Source: Asticcacaulis endophyticus
GTDB lineage: Bacteria; Pseudomonadota; Alphaproteobacteria; Caulobacterales; Caulobacteraceae
Reading direction: 5' to 3'
Assembly (NCBI RefSeq): GCF_014652575.1
Contig: NZ_BMZB01000001.1
Coordinates: 496,001 to 560,000 of the forward strand
Length of the DNA stretch: 64,000 bases
Part shown: positions 37,320-43,869 of the stretch, one piece after another
Layout of the letters: every line of letters starts with the position of its first letter
How positions within the stretch are numbered: the first letter of the stretch is position 1
Program-made: the position numbers and the translations under genes
Notes under the pieces: model-generated
Seen by the model: the letters and a program-made list of their open reading frames with translations, nothing else
The model's database searches: none
Told to the model about the DNA's origin: nothing

Positions 37320-37343
37320 TCAATACCCCTAAACTACACGTTG

Positions 37344-37374
37344 AAGGCGGTTCCTTACGGAGCCGCCTTTTTTG
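37344..37374 (+). terminator. Intrinsic terminator of sucCD
   Basis: Stem AAGGCGGTTCC / GGAGCCGCCTT (one G-T pair), TTAC loop, then TTTTTT overlap. It shares the CCTTACGG tip with the terminator after sucB (42218-42247). Confidence 0.9.
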
Positions 37375-37453
37375 TGGGCGAAAGCCATTTTCAGACACGA
37401 ATTTACGGTCACAAACCGAAATGAAAAATTTTGTCTGACAATTAATTCACCCG

Positions 37454-37480
37454 TTTTTGACGGTTCTCAACCGTCAAAAA
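37454..37480. promoter_or_regulatory. Long inverted repeat upstream of sucA
   Basis: Perfect 12-base arms TTTTTGACGGTT / AACCGTCAAAAA around CTC. The A run follows the stem on either strand, so it is not a normal terminator; it could be an operator or a cruciform. It is located 145 bases before the sucA start codon. Confidence 0.6.
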
Positions 37481-37544
37481 AAAGAGTATGCGTAACTTAA
37501 GCCTGCGAATAGTCGCAGTGCGTCCTATTGCCTAGTGATCAGGC

Positions 37545-37612
37545 AGGCGGTGTCGTAATTGGCCGCCTAAACCGAAACATGAAAGGGAAGCGGTGTCGTA
37601 ATTGGCCGCTTC
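37545..37612 (+). promoter_or_regulatory. Duplicated hairpin in the sucA 5' leader
   Basis: Two copies of the 20-base unit GCGGTGTCGTAATTGGCCGC lie at 37547-37566 and 37590-37609. Each is the core of a hairpin with the identical 12-base loop TGTCGTAATTGG. The flanking stem bases differ but stay paired: AGGCGG/CCGCCT in the first, GAAGCGG/CCGCTTC in the second (a G-C pair becomes A-T). The second hairpin ends 13 bases before the sucA ATG, where the ribosome site is weak (AGG). This strongly suggests an RNA-level control element. Confidence 0.7.
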
Positions 37613-37625
37613 AGCAGGTAGCCTC

Positions 37626-40598
37626 ATGGCGGATGATTCCGGCCGTTTAAATCAGGTGTTCGCAGAAACCTCGTTTCTGTATGGCGGCAATGCCGTTTTT
37701 ATCGAACAAATTCAGGAAAAATGGGCCAAAGACCCCAGTTCCGTCTCCCCCGCCTGGCGGGCCTTCTTCGATCAGTTGATGGACCAGCCCTCGGTCGTCG
37801 CGGATAACGCTGACGCCGGGTCATGGGCGCGCGACATTCCCGCCGTCCGCGATGAGCTTACCTCGGCTATGGACGGGTTCTGGCCCGCCGTCGAAGCCAA
37901 GGCTGCCAAGATGCCGGAAAAGACCGCCGCGGTGGTCACCGGCTCAGCCGCACCGTCACCGGAGGCTCTGCGCGCCGCGTCGCGCGACTCCGTGCGCGCT
38001 CTGATGCTGATCCGCGCCTACCGTATTCGCGGCCACCTGCAGTCGAACCTTGATCCGCTTGGCATTTCGCCCAAGGGCACCAACCCTGAGCTGGAGCCCT
38101 CACACTGGGGTTTCACCGACGCTGACCTGAACCGTCCGATCTTTATCGACGGCGTTCTGGGCTTAGAGACCGCGACCTTAACCGAAATCATCACCATCCT
38201 TAAGCGCACCTATTGCTCGAATGTCGGCGTGCAGTACATGCACATCGCCGATCCGGCTGAAAAAGCCTGGATTCAGGAGCGCATTGAGGGCCGCGACAAG
38301 GAAATCACCTTCACCAAGGAAGGCAAGATCGCCATCCTGAAGAAGCTGATCGAAACCGAAGGCTTTGAGCGCTTCATCCACCGTCGTTTCCCCGGCACCA
38401 AGCGCTTCGGCCTTGACGGTGGCGAAGCCATGATCCCGGCGCTGGAGCAGATCATCAAGCGCGGCGGCGCGCTCGGCATGAAGGACATCATCCTCGGTAT
38501 GGCCCACCGTGGCCGCCTGAACGTGCTGGCCGGCGTGATGGGCAAGCCCTATAAGGCCGTGTTCCACGAATTCCAGGGCGGCTCGTCCCTGCCGTCGGAC
38601 ATCGAAGGTTCCGGCGACGTGAAGTACCACATGGGCGCGTCATCTGACCGTGCCTTTGACGGTAACAATGTCCACCTGTCGCTAACCGCCAACCCGTCGC
38701 ACCTTGAAATCGTCAACCCGGTCGTTCTGGGTAAGGCGCGCGCCAAGCAGTACTACCAGATCAAGGAAAAGAACGACGGCACGCTTGATCGTTCGGGCAC
38801 CCTGCCGCTGCTGATCCACGGCGACGCCGCCTTTGCCGGTCAGGGTGTCGGCATGGAATGTTTCGCGCTGATGGGCCTTAAGGGCTATAAGACCGGCGGC
38901 ACTATCCACTTCATCATCAATAACCAGATCGGCTTTACGACCTCGCCGCACAATTCACGCTCAAGCCCCTATCCTTCGGACGTGGCCTTGATGGTCGCGG
39001 CGCCTATCCTGCACGTCAACGGTGACGATCCCGAAGCTGTGGTGTTTGCCGCGAAACTGGCGACCGAGTTCCGTCAGACCTTCGCCAAAGACGTGGTCAT
39101 CGACATGTTCTGCTATCGCCGCTTCGGTCACAACGAAGGCGATGATCCGACCTTCACCCAGCCGCTGATGTACGCCAAGATTAAGGACCACCCGTCAACG
39201 CGCGAACTGTATTCGCAGCGTCTGATCGCTGAGGGCACCGTCTCTCAGGCTGAGGTTGATGGCTTCATCAAGGACTTCGACACCTTCCTCGATTCCGAAT
39301 TTGAAGCGGGTAAGGTCTATAAGGCGTCTAAGGCCGACTGGCTGGACGGCAAGTGGTCAGGCCTTGGCCTGCCCGAAGAAGATGAGCGTCGCGGCACCAC
39401 CTCCGTGCCCCGCGCCAAACTTAATGAAATCGGCCGCAAGATCACTGAAATCCCTAACCACGTCGATATGCACAAGACGCTGAAGCGCGTTATTGATGCC
39501 CGTCGTGCAGCGGTGGATTCCGGTGAGAATATCGACTGGGCTTTGGCGGAGCATCTGGCCTATGGCTCGCTGCTCGACGAAGGTTTCCCCGTGCGCCTGT
39601 CCGGTCAGGATTCGGTACGCGGCACCTTCTCTCAACGTCACTCAGCTTTCGTTGATCAGACCACGGAAGAACGATACTTCCCGCTCAACAATCTGCGCGA
39701 AGGTCAGGCTCAGTACGAAGTGATCGACTCGGCCCTGTCCGAAGAAGCCGTGCTTGGTTTTGAGTACGGTTACAGCCTCGCCGATCCGAACACATTGACC
39801 CTGTGGGAAGGCCAGTTCGGCGACTTTGTGAATGGCGCGCAAGTGGTGATTGACCAGTTCATCTCATCGGGTGAGCGCAAGTGGCTGCGGATGTCGGGCC
39901 TTGTGATGCTGCTGCCGCATGGCTACGAAGGTCAGGGCCCGGAACATTCGTCCGCTCGCCTTGAACGCTTCCTGCAAGCCTGCGCCGAAGACAATATGCA
40001 GGTTGCCAACTGCACGACGCCGGCCAACTACTTCCACATCCTGCGCCGTCAGATCCACCGTCCGTTCCGCAAACCCCTGATTATCATGACGCCGAAATCG
40101 CTTCTGCGTCACAAGAAGGCGGTTTCAACTTTTGCGGATATCTCTGAGGGGTCTAGCTTCCACCGCGTCCTGCACGACGACGCCCAGACACGCCCGGAAG
40201 TGGCTGGTGTCAAGCTGGTCGCTGACGACAAGATCCGCCGCGTCGTTCTGTGTTCGGGCAAGGTCTATTACGATTTGCTCGAAGACCGCGAAAAGAAGGG
40301 TATCAAGGACGTTTATCTGATGCGTCTTGAGCAGTTCTATCCGTGGCCGATGAAGTCGCTGCTGACGGAGCTTGGTCGCTTCAAGAACGCCGAACTGGTC
40401 TGGTGTCAGGAAGAACCGAAAAACATGGGCGGCTGGACGTTTGTCGAGCCGTGGCTGGAACTGACGCTGGATAAGCTGAAGGTCAAGGCCAAGCGCGCCC
40501 GTTATGTCGGCCGTCCGGCCTCGGCCTCGACCGCCGCCGGTGTCATGAGCCGCCACCTCAAAGAGCTTGAAACCTTTCTCAATGAGGCGTTCGCGTAA
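37626..40598 (+). CDS. sucA: 2-oxoglutarate dehydrogenase E1 component
   Basis: Thiamine-diphosphate-dependent decarboxylase of the 2-oxoglutarate dehydrogenase complex. 990 residues from MADDSGRLNQVF. The N-terminal FLYGGNAVFIEQI peptide binds the E2 core; the TPP region has HGDAAFAGQGV near residue 397 and IINNQIGFTT after it, followed by RFGHNEGDDP. An upstream TTG in frame lies inside hairpin 2 and is not used. The long structured leader (37320-37625) suggests dedicated regulation. sucB follows 59 bases downstream. Confidence 0.97.
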   Translation: MADDSGRLNQVFAETSFLYGGNAVFIEQIQEKWAKDPSSVSPAWRAFFDQLMDQPSVVADNADAGSWARDIPAVRDELTSAMDGFWPAVEAKAAKMPEKTAAVVTGSAAPSPEALRAASRDSVRALMLIRAYRIRGHLQSNLDPLGISPKGTNPELEPSHWGFTDADLNRPIFIDGVLGLETATLTEIITILKRTYCSNVGVQYMHIADPAEKAWIQERIEGRDKEITFTKEGKIAILKKLIETEGFERFIHRRFPGTKRFGLDGGEAMIPALEQIIKRGGALGMKDIILGMAHRGRLNVLAGVMGKPYKAVFHEFQGGSSLPSDIEGSGDVKYHMGASSDRAFDGNNVHLSLTANPSHLEIVNPVVLGKARAKQYYQIKEKNDGTLDRSGTLPLLIHGDAAFAGQGVGMECFALMGLKGYKTGGTIHFIINNQIGFTTSPHNSRSSPYPSDVALMVAAPILHVNGDDPEAVVFAAKLATEFRQTFAKDVVIDMFCYRRFGHNEGDDPTFTQPLMYAKIKDHPSTRELYSQRLIAEGTVSQAEVDGFIKDFDTFLDSEFEAGKVYKASKADWLDGKWSGLGLPEEDERRGTTSVPRAKLNEIGRKITEIPNHVDMHKTLKRVIDARRAAVDSGENIDWALAEHLAYGSLLDEGFPVRLSGQDSVRGTFSQRHSAFVDQTTEERYFPLNNLREGQAQYEVIDSALSEEAVLGFEYGYSLADPNTLTLWEGQFGDFVNGAQVVIDQFISSGERKWLRMSGLVMLLPHGYEGQGPEHSSARLERFLQACAEDNMQVANCTTPANYFHILRRQIHRPFRKPLIIMTPKSLLRHKKAVSTFADISEGSSFHRVLHDDAQTRPEVAGVKLVADDKIRRVVLCSGKVYYDLLEDREKKGIKDVYLMRLEQFYPWPMKSLLTELGRFKNAELVWCQEEPKNMGGWTFVEPWLELTLDKLKVKAKRARYVGRPASASTAAGVMSRHLKELETFLNEAFA

Positions 40599-42333: not shown

Positions 42334-43254
42334 ATGGGACGACCACGCACGCACGGGGAAACACAAACGGGGCGGACGCCACACCGGACAGTGAATAGCG
42401 CCATAAAATTATTCAGCGCACTGATAATACTGACCTCCCTGTGGGCACCCATGGCTGAAGCCGCCGCCAAATCCAAAGGTGGTCAATATAACACGGTGGC
42501 CTCACGCCGTGCCCAGCCGCATCTGGACCTGGCCATGACCGCACCCATGCCGCAACTGCTGGATCAGGCAGCGGAGCTTAAGCCGGAATATGTTCTGGCC
42601 TATGGCCTGGCCCTCGAATTGGGACGCGAACCTGCCACCCTCAGCCCCACCCAGCGGGCCAAGGTGCAGGGCGTGTTTCAGGACTTTCTCAATGAATTTG
42701 TCTACAAAAAAGACAATATTGCCCTCAAAGGCGACGAAGATGCGCTTCTGGGGCAGCCCGATTTCTGGATCATGATGGCCCGTGTCTTTGGCAGAAAACC
42801 GCAACATATGCGGCTGATGGGCGGCACAACCCTGATCAGCGACACGACCGGCGCTGTCTCAACGCTCAATTTCGGCGCTTATGATCTCAACGATAACACC
42901 TTCCGTCCCGAAGACTATCGTTTCAGCGAAGAGACCGTGCTGAACCGTTATATGGTCTACGCAGCGCAGTCCTGCGCCATGTATGCCAAAATCTCTGAGC
43001 AAATGAAAAAGGCCCAAAGGGTAGATGCCGCCTCAGTCTCACATCTGACGCCGGAAAAGCTGGCTGAGGTCAAGGCCACCGCCCGGACTATCCATACCGA
43101 GGCTCTGCGCTATGGCCCTGCAGCGTGCGGCGGGCGCGACTATTTCAATAAGGTCTCAGCCTTTGCCGCCGCCAATCTGGGTCGGCTGAACACGCTGAAA
43201 GACGATCCCATCGCTCAGATCACCCCGGTCGCGACGGATAGCCCTATCCCTTAA
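42334..43254 (+). CDS. Uncharacterised exported protein
   Basis: 306 residues if ATG 42334 is used; a GTG at 42391 would give a cleaner signal peptide (VNSAIKLFSALIILTSLWAP, cleavage near AEA) after removing a polar 19-residue lead. The sequence ACGGGGAAAC occurs before the ATG (42320) and again before the GTG (42353), so both could serve as ribosome sites. The mature part is mostly alpha-helical with no repeat or domain that I recognise; C220-type cysteines (AQSCAMY, AACGGRDYF) may form one disulfide. It lies between sucB and lpdA, which usually adjoin, so it is an insertion in that cluster. Confidence 0.6.
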   Translation: MGRPRTHGETQTGRTPHRTVNSAIKLFSALIILTSLWAPMAEAAAKSKGGQYNTVASRRAQPHLDLAMTAPMPQLLDQAAELKPEYVLAYGLALELGREPATLSPTQRAKVQGVFQDFLNEFVYKKDNIALKGDEDALLGQPDFWIMMARVFGRKPQHMRLMGGTTLISDTTGAVSTLNFGAYDLNDNTFRPEDYRFSEETVLNRYMVYAAQSCAMYAKISEQMKKAQRVDAASVSHLTPEKLAEVKATARTIHTEALRYGPAACGGRDYFNKVSAFAAANLGRLNTLKDDPIAQITPVATDSPIP

Positions 43255-43326: not shown

Positions 43327-43869
43327 ATGGATGCGGCCATGAAAATTCTGCGCTGGTTTATCGCAGCACTGGTGCTGGCCTATACGGTCTGGATTAGCTG
43401 GCCGGTCATTCAGGCCAAGGTTTTGGGGCAGCCCGATGAGCCGTTTGTGTCGTCGCGCGCCGCCGATGACATCGACTATCGCGGCGGCTACAGTATGGCC
43501 CCCGTCCGCGATCCTTATGCCCCGCCGCTGGCTGAATCCATTCAGGGACGCACGGCGCTTGAGGCCATAGAGACCGACAATCAGCCGGTAATCTGGCTGT
43601 GGGCGTCGGTCGTGGCGCTATATGTCATCGCCGCGTTTTTGTTCGCCAATGGCAATTTGCGCGCCGCCTTTGCTTATGGCCTGGGATTTATCGCCGATGT
43701 CGTCCTGACCTATCTGACCAAGGGCGAAGCGGGGGCCGGTATATTCGATAAGGTGCTTGAAATCCTGTCGGGCTGGGACCCGCGCTATGTGCTGACCTTG
43801 GTGGCGCTGGGCTTAGGGTTTATCATGGCGATGGCCCGTCTGCGGCCCGTTAACCGCCGCCCGTTCTGA
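43327..43869 (+). CDS. Small uncharacterised membrane protein
   Basis: 180 residues with a signal-anchor helix (about 5-27), a short periplasmic loop rich in Asp, Arg and Pro (SRAADDIDYRGGYS), and three more helices (about 90-110, 113-130, 155-172). CCGGAGGGGG before the ATG is a strong ribosome site. No family is recognised. It lies between the exported protein 42334 and lpdA on the same strand with 72 and 111 bases of spacing. Confidence 0.6.
   Translation: MDAAMKILRWFIAALVLAYTVWISWPVIQAKVLGQPDEPFVSSRAADDIDYRGGYSMAPVRDPYAPPLAESIQGRTALEAIETDNQPVIWLWASVVALYVIAAFLFANGNLRAAFAYGLGFIADVVLTYLTKGEAGAGIFDKVLEILSGWDPRYVLTLVALGLGFIMAMARLRPVNRRPF

Follow-up and report, generated by a model that had tools for sequence, protein, structure and literature searches.

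Repeated hairpins placed by a ribosome site are known from the E. coli thrS operator, where a dimeric enzyme represses its own mRNA and the loops mimic the tRNA anticodon. Upstream of a suc gene, the Rfam sucA leader motif is a conserved RNA structure of other proteobacteria. We analysed a window of 64,000 nucleotides (the whole stretch of DNA under study) from Asticcacaulis endophyticus, in which a pair of hairpins precedes sucA. The leader is like the thrS operator in that repeated hairpins adjoin the ribosome site, and unlike it in that no mimicry of a tRNA anticodon was noticed in the loops. With the Rfam families sucA, sucA-II (RF01758) and sucC (RF01759) it has in common a conserved RNA structure in front of a suc gene of a proteobacterium; however, those families come from other taxa, and none of their covariance models matched this leader.

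A second kind of relative is the split ribosome site. In T4 genes 38 and 25, according to the portion of the review PMC3014915 available to us, a hairpin cuts the distance between the Shine-Dalgarno sequence and the AUG from 22 to 5 and from 27 to 11 nt, and mutations that destabilise this hairpin lower translation. If the hexamer GAAAGG (see below) is a Shine-Dalgarno sequence, the sucA leaders of the genus would follow the same plan, with a distant site, a hairpin in between and a distance that falls from 37-40 nt to the 11-14 nt left once hairpin 2 is folded. As far as that portion describes the T4 genes, the sucA case differs from them in the invariant loop of its hairpin, in the second copy upstream and in the chromosomal, metabolic nature of the gene.

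Tandem RNA elements in front of metabolic genes form a third point of comparison. The pan RNA motif, as it appears in the accessible part of PMC2864571, is a simple stem that usually occurs in tandem ahead of metabolic genes and carries two bulged A residues; the same part of the source offers the tandem glnA RNAs as a precedent for tandem metabolite-sensing RNA. As far as this account of the pan motif goes, sucA likewise has simple stems in tandem before a metabolic gene, but its hairpins are plain stems with a conserved 12-nt loop, and the two bulged A residues are not found, as all 29 distinct stems align without gaps or bulges. Finally, the small RNA GlnZ controls sucA in Salmonella and E. 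coli (from the available part of PMC9731577); this is post-transcriptional control of the same gene, exerted by an unrelated RNA. Among the papers listed in our search of the literature on sucA and suc leader motifs, Asticcacaulis and the repression of 2-oxoglutarate dehydrogenase, none dealt with the pair itself.

The gene in question, sucA, occupies positions 37626..40598 of the plus strand, with its ATG at 37626, and encodes the 2-oxoglutarate dehydrogenase E1 component, in whose product a Pfam search recovered four domains (the N-terminal piece, E1_dh, Transket_pyr and the C-terminal domain). Both hairpins lie on the same strand. Hairpin 1 (37545..37568) reads AGGCGG-[12 nt]-CCGCCT and has a 6-bp stem, with the loop UGUCGUAAUUGG at 37551-37562. 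Hairpin 2 (37587..37612) reads GAAGCGG-[12 nt]-CCGCTTC and has a 7-bp stem, with the same loop UGUCGUAAUUGG at 37594-37605. The two share the 20-mer GCGGTGTCGTAATTGGCCGC, at 37547-37566 and 37590-37609, with a start-to-start spacing of 43. A first-pass annotation of this DNA had described a 20-base unit occurring twice, 43 bases apart, before sucA, with identical 12-base loops, a single G-C to A-T change in the stem and 13 bases between the second hairpin and the ATG. Each of these statements agrees with our reading: both copies were located, 0 of 100 shuffles of the window matched the 20-mer pair, the loop is identical in the two hairpins, at the fifth pair outward from the loop copy 1 has G-C where copy 2 has A-T, and hairpin 2 ends at 37612.

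Folded alone, hairpin 1 reaches -11.9 kcal/mol (z -2.33; 6 of 200 shuffles fold equally well) and hairpin 2 reaches -13.0 kcal/mol (z -3.13; 3 of 200), and the folding of the sucA leader as a whole is unexceptional (z -1.45). A search of the whole genome found the exact 20-mer nowhere outside the sucA leader. Two further sites carry three mismatches to it (L003 and L004); L003, considered as a third copy, was rejected, as it lies antisense within a coding frame.

A search with the SucA N-terminus located sucA in 61 of 61 genomes, 25 of them from Asticcacaulis and 36 from outside the genus. Hairpins with the loop UGUCGUNRUUGG are present in all 25 Asticcacaulis leaders: 24 carry two and one (L053) carries three, which gives 51 hairpins, 29 of them distinct. 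The copies are spaced 42 to 109 nt apart. The place of hairpin 2 is fixed: its stem has 7 bp in 25/25 leaders, it ends 11-14 nt before the ATG, and its GG stands at -35 to -32. When the 25 whole leaders were folded freely, the mean pairing probability was 0.81 for stem 2 (below 0.5 in 4 leaders) and 0.59 for stem 1 (below 0.5 in 10). We also considered whether hairpins in the linker equalise the distance between copies; this was suggestive by eye, and was set aside because five of seven long linkers fold no better than shuffles. In five leaders (L049, L052 and L055-L057), the long linker holds a common AAGGGTGGTTG piece able to form a hairpin, the folding of which is likewise not better than that of shuffles.

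Ten of the twelve loop positions are invariant in the 29 distinct hairpins, and the remaining two are N and R; the pattern used to collect the hairpins itself fixes these ten positions, and R is not forced by it. A looser scan of the leaders, allowing 4 mismatches over 14 fixed bases, added a single match, which was not a hairpin of this kind. The N and R positions differ between the copies of one leader in 19 of 25 genomes, which argues against a single antisense RNA that pairs across the whole loop. UNR is the motif of the U-turn, and the loop fits a turn with an outward apex of this sort: if U3-G12, C4-G11 and G5-U10 paired, a UNRU tetraloop would remain at the tip. Sites of CsrA/RsmA present GGA in a hairpin loop; here all 29 distinct hairpins present UGUCGUNRUUGG, a loop in which GGA is not found.

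We aligned the 29 distinct hairpins, giving 203 pair cells, and used 500 shuffles as a control. The covariation score was 0.612 against 0.212±0.033 in shuffles, standard pairs filled 90.6% of the cells against 69.9%, and 44 cells were changed on both sides against 11.0; no shuffle scored as high on any of these three measures. Two weaker measures gave six pairs with a double change (a value reached by 13/500 shuffles) and 17 further pair types (reached by 4/500). Sliding the pair partner, as another control, brought covariation to at most 0.244. Among the cells of the five inner pairs, ten are G-U or U-G and none is A-C, which is the pattern of RNA in the sense of sucA. The two outermost pairs are looser: of their 58 cells, 17 hold no pair, seven of these being A-C, and four are G-U.

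We then placed the stem changes on a maximum-likelihood tree of sucA with 25 rows. The outermost pair of hairpin 2 must have switched between G-C and C-G three times, three changes being counted on each side, and three pairs of hairpin 1 need 4, 4 and 7 state changes, some of them one-sided. Stem changes thus recurred and do not go back to one inherited event. The two outermost pairs of hairpin 1 changed nine times each, often to non-pairs, so that its stem is effectively 5-6 bp long in many species. Comparison within the genus shows that the hairpins are maintained as RNA in the sucA sense and that the loop core is strongly constrained. The first-pass annotation had proposed an RNA element recognised by way of its loops, and the genus supports this. 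None of the observations that it had named as contrary to its proposal (loss of the pair in relatives, altered loops, non-compensatory stem changes) was made: all 25 leaders keep the pair, the loop core is invariant and the inner stem compensates.

Outside the genus, we examined the leaders of 23 of the 36 genomes, namely 12/12 from the same family and 11/24 from the same order, and none of these 23 sucA leaders holds such a hairpin pair. We also ran a script that reports any pair of hairpins with a loop in common. It detected shared loops of 12 to 16 nt in 22 of the 25 genus leaders; the three that it missed, L049, L052 and L056, have an upstream stem that its rules class as short or imperfect. 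From outside the genus came only 8-nt pairs with six or seven identical bases, in 3 of 23 leaders. A covariance model built from the 29 distinct hairpins recovered the sucA leader in 25/25 Asticcacaulis genomes and made no other match there at E < 0.005. The best match away from sucA in the genus, at E 0.006 in genome G137, was rejected because it lies in a coding frame that resembles a copper-protein fold by eye, and a second genome (G029, locus L133) carries the same match. Further weak matches in the genus range from E 0.03 to 1, and the two that were read (L142 and L143) both fall in open frames of coding length. In a search of 249 genomes of the family, 24 genomes outside the genus gave matches at E 0.007 to 0.05. 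All ten matches that were read (eight outside the genus and two weak ones within it) fall within open frames that are 182 to 350 codons long, and in nine of them the longest frame runs opposite to the match. A search of 385 genomes of the class added, besides the genome studied here, one match, discarded for its place within a coding frame.

A search of named genomes with a sequence pattern returned 18 stretches, 16 of them from Asticcacaulis; the other two, from Azospirillum (L099) and from Acidobacteriaceae (L112), were dismissed as chance matches in coding DNA. Because the loop and the sucA start ATGGCNGAYGAY are fixed in it, this pattern is blind to diverged loops, and diverged relatives of the loop would escape the range searches in general. 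Viral contigs gave no match to the tandem pattern with a gap of 20-50. Among the genomes and leaders searched, the hairpin pair looks specific to sucA and to Asticcacaulis. The first-pass annotation had proposed a covariance-model search of Caulobacterales leaders; the range that emerged is Asticcacaulis, in 25/25 genomes, and not the Caulobacterales. As to named families, Rfam 15 at the gathering threshold had no match in the window or in 19 loci that hold 19 of the other 24 genus leaders, in keeping with the earlier remark that no named leader motif was recognised; with the limit relaxed to E 5, the interval 37320-37700 gave seven weak matches, sbrA among them, and no suc family.

The surroundings of sucA bear on whether the hairpins are transcribed with it. 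On the plus strand 3' of sucD, at 37344..37373, a hairpin followed by a T run resembles an intrinsic terminator by eye; the sub-threshold sbrA match covers it, and a terminator scan did not report it. Such a terminator-like hairpin would split sucCD from the sucA transcript, and on its account sucA probably has a promoter of its own. A promoter-like block, GGTTCTCAA-N12-AGRGTAT, lies at 37462..37489 of the plus strand and is common to 14 of the 25 genus leaders, the other 11 being without it; a promoter scan found no sigma-70 consensus match in it. In nine leaders the block ends 15-17 nt, and in five, the group of the window itself, 59-62 nt, 5' of the GG of hairpin 1. If it is a promoter, both hairpins lie within the transcript. 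Overlapping it at 37454..37480, with no strand assigned, is a perfect 12-bp inverted repeat around GGTTCTCAACC, which may be a transcription-factor operator; by eye, its arms vary between species.

Several other features of the region were recorded. An upstream open reading frame running through hairpin 2 is present in the window and was rejected, since by eye it has an internal stop in L054 and no start in L041. The two open reading frames between sucB and lpd (42334-43254 and 43327-43869) have no Pfam match. A GC-rich block that contains CGAGCTTATGCGAGG and probably belongs to an intergenic repeat family occurs three times in L054 (304, 218 and 131 nt before sucA, with a spacing of 86-87 nt) and once in L051, 131 nt before sucA. 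In L044, about 124 nt between GCTAACATTT and AAATCGTATACG, some 150-290 nt before sucA and upstream of the promoter-like block, have no counterpart in L041, a close relative.

The linker before hairpin 2 varies among species except for GAAAGG (37581..37586, plus strand), which adjoins the hairpin on its 5' side, is invariant in 25/25 leaders and precedes the first hairpin in 0/25. We took the 16S tail of the genus to end in UUUCU; the 16S end was searched for in the genomes and was not found. With this assumed tail, the GAAAGG region beats the start-proximal site, an AGG at 37616..37618 of the plus strand, in all 25 leaders (-8.6 vs -4.4 kcal/mol, the former from 9-nt windows that include the first bases of the hairpin 2 stem), and the six bases alone give -6.8 kcal/mol. 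With a tail ending in CCUUU, the six bases beat the near site in 4/25 leaders and nine bases do so in 20/25; with CCUU, the figures are 0/25 and 8/25. A Shine-Dalgarno role of GAAAGG is thus not robust, because the result depends on the tail that is assumed, and we regard GAAAGG as a plausible split Shine-Dalgarno sequence that hinges on it. The near sites of sucC and lpd (-4.4 and -5.0 kcal/mol) are similar to that of sucA, and this near site may suffice by itself. The earlier description of the ribosome site as poor therefore holds for the weak near site, but the invariant GAAAGG 5' of hairpin 2 may be the true one, given the assumed tail.

We tentatively favour, with somewhat less than even confidence, a scenario in which the pair is a genus-specific cis-acting RNA element of sucA, a translational operator whose two loops would be read by a two-site protein repressor. 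From the pattern of conservation we infer that the loops are recognised by a protein or a small RNA. The best explanation for a loop that stays exact while its stem drifts, in two copies, at one gene and with one of them by the start codon, is a factor that recognises the loops and controls initiation. The doubling of one loop at a single gene would suit a dedicated two-site binder, and two equal RNA sites near the ribosome site, as expected of an operator for a dimeric protein, are seen in 24/25 leaders, with three such sites in 1/25. The factor would act in trans and grip both loops; it would most likely be a protein that has two equal binding sites, such as a dimer, with hairpin 2 as the operator and hairpin 1 as the anchor. 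Bound to hairpin 2, it would compete with the 30S subunit and lower the translation of 2-oxoglutarate dehydrogenase E1. It is less certain that GAAAGG would be the main Shine-Dalgarno sequence, brought closer to the AUG by the folding of hairpin 2 into a split ribosome site; both the dimer and the direction of control are conjecture. Against this scenario count the free folding of whole leaders, which does not always produce both hairpins, the loose outermost pairs, the variable spacing of the copies, the dependence of the GAAAGG result on the assumed tail and the near sites of sucC and lpd. It is tempting to suppose that the complex reads its own leader, a split ribosome site serving also as a two-site operator for 2-oxoglutarate dehydrogenase itself, for example for its E1 subunit, which we take to be a dimer; we give this extended version only a small chance.

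Hairpin 2 might also do no more than bridge GAAAGG and the AUG for efficient translation, the loop being kept for a compact fold such as a UNR apex, and the succession of N and R in all 29 distinct hairpins would suit a UNR turn. GAAAGG, the 7-bp stem and the 11-14 nt tail are fixed in 25/25 leaders, and T4 genes 25 and 38 work in this manner, as the part of PMC3014915 at hand describes them. We nevertheless judge bridging by itself unlikely, as it leaves unexplained the same loop on an upstream hairpin, 42-109 nt away and never behind GAAAGG, and it leans on the assumed 16S tail. The loops are exposed, and a small RNA could pair with their UGUCGU and UUGG parts and so control sucA, much as the unrelated GlnZ does; sucA is a proven small RNA target in enterobacteria, according to the available part of PMC9731577. 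But the central loop positions differ between copies in 19/25 genomes, so that one small RNA could not match both copies across the loop, though short seeds of 4-6 bases might still pair, and a target would need no two compensating stems, which makes this account distinctly unlikely. A tandem riboswitch that senses a metabolite, for example 2-oxoglutarate or a relative, and whose two copies would give a cooperative response, would accommodate the invariant loops, the tandem arrangement and the metabolic gene, and has a precedent in the tandem glnA RNAs (within the consulted portion of PMC2864571). However, each unit is a bare 26-nt hairpin in which no pseudoknot or junction was seen by eye, and copies stand up to 109 nt apart; we consider a riboswitch quite improbable.

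An action at the level of the transcript (on its stability, as an RNase site or through modification of RNA polymerase by the RNA) would profit from the well-supported structure of the RNA and from the position of hairpin 1, 15-17 nt behind the promoter-like block in 9/25 leaders. Yet the fixed place of hairpin 2, with its GG at -35 to -32, together with the invariant GAAAGG, points to translation, and we assign this possibility a low probability. Lastly, the repeats could act as DNA, either as the direct repeats of an operator or as a mobile repeat: there are two direct copies in the window, and 43 bp is about four helical turns. Copy spacing is unphased in other species, though, a single locus per genome is found at E < 0.005, and compensating stems enclose an asymmetric loop, with G-U and no A-C in the inner five pairs. 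A DNA element is, in our opinion, very improbable.

With respect to the preferred operator scenario, the kinds of parts involved (structured leaders, tandem protein sites, split ribosome sites) are already known, and what would be new is their combination here: the sucA leader may join a hairpin-bridged split ribosome site with duplicated recognition loops, features known apart. Strong covariation, the lack of an Rfam match and a single target gene together imply a new RNA-binding partner or a small RNA sensor, in a genus that includes cultured species. The enzyme concerned, 2-oxoglutarate dehydrogenase, marks the point where energy metabolism and nitrogen assimilation diverge. If its own complex were indeed the reader, a TCA-cycle enzyme would adjust the rate of its own translation by means of an RNA loop that is undescribed and found in one bacterial genus.
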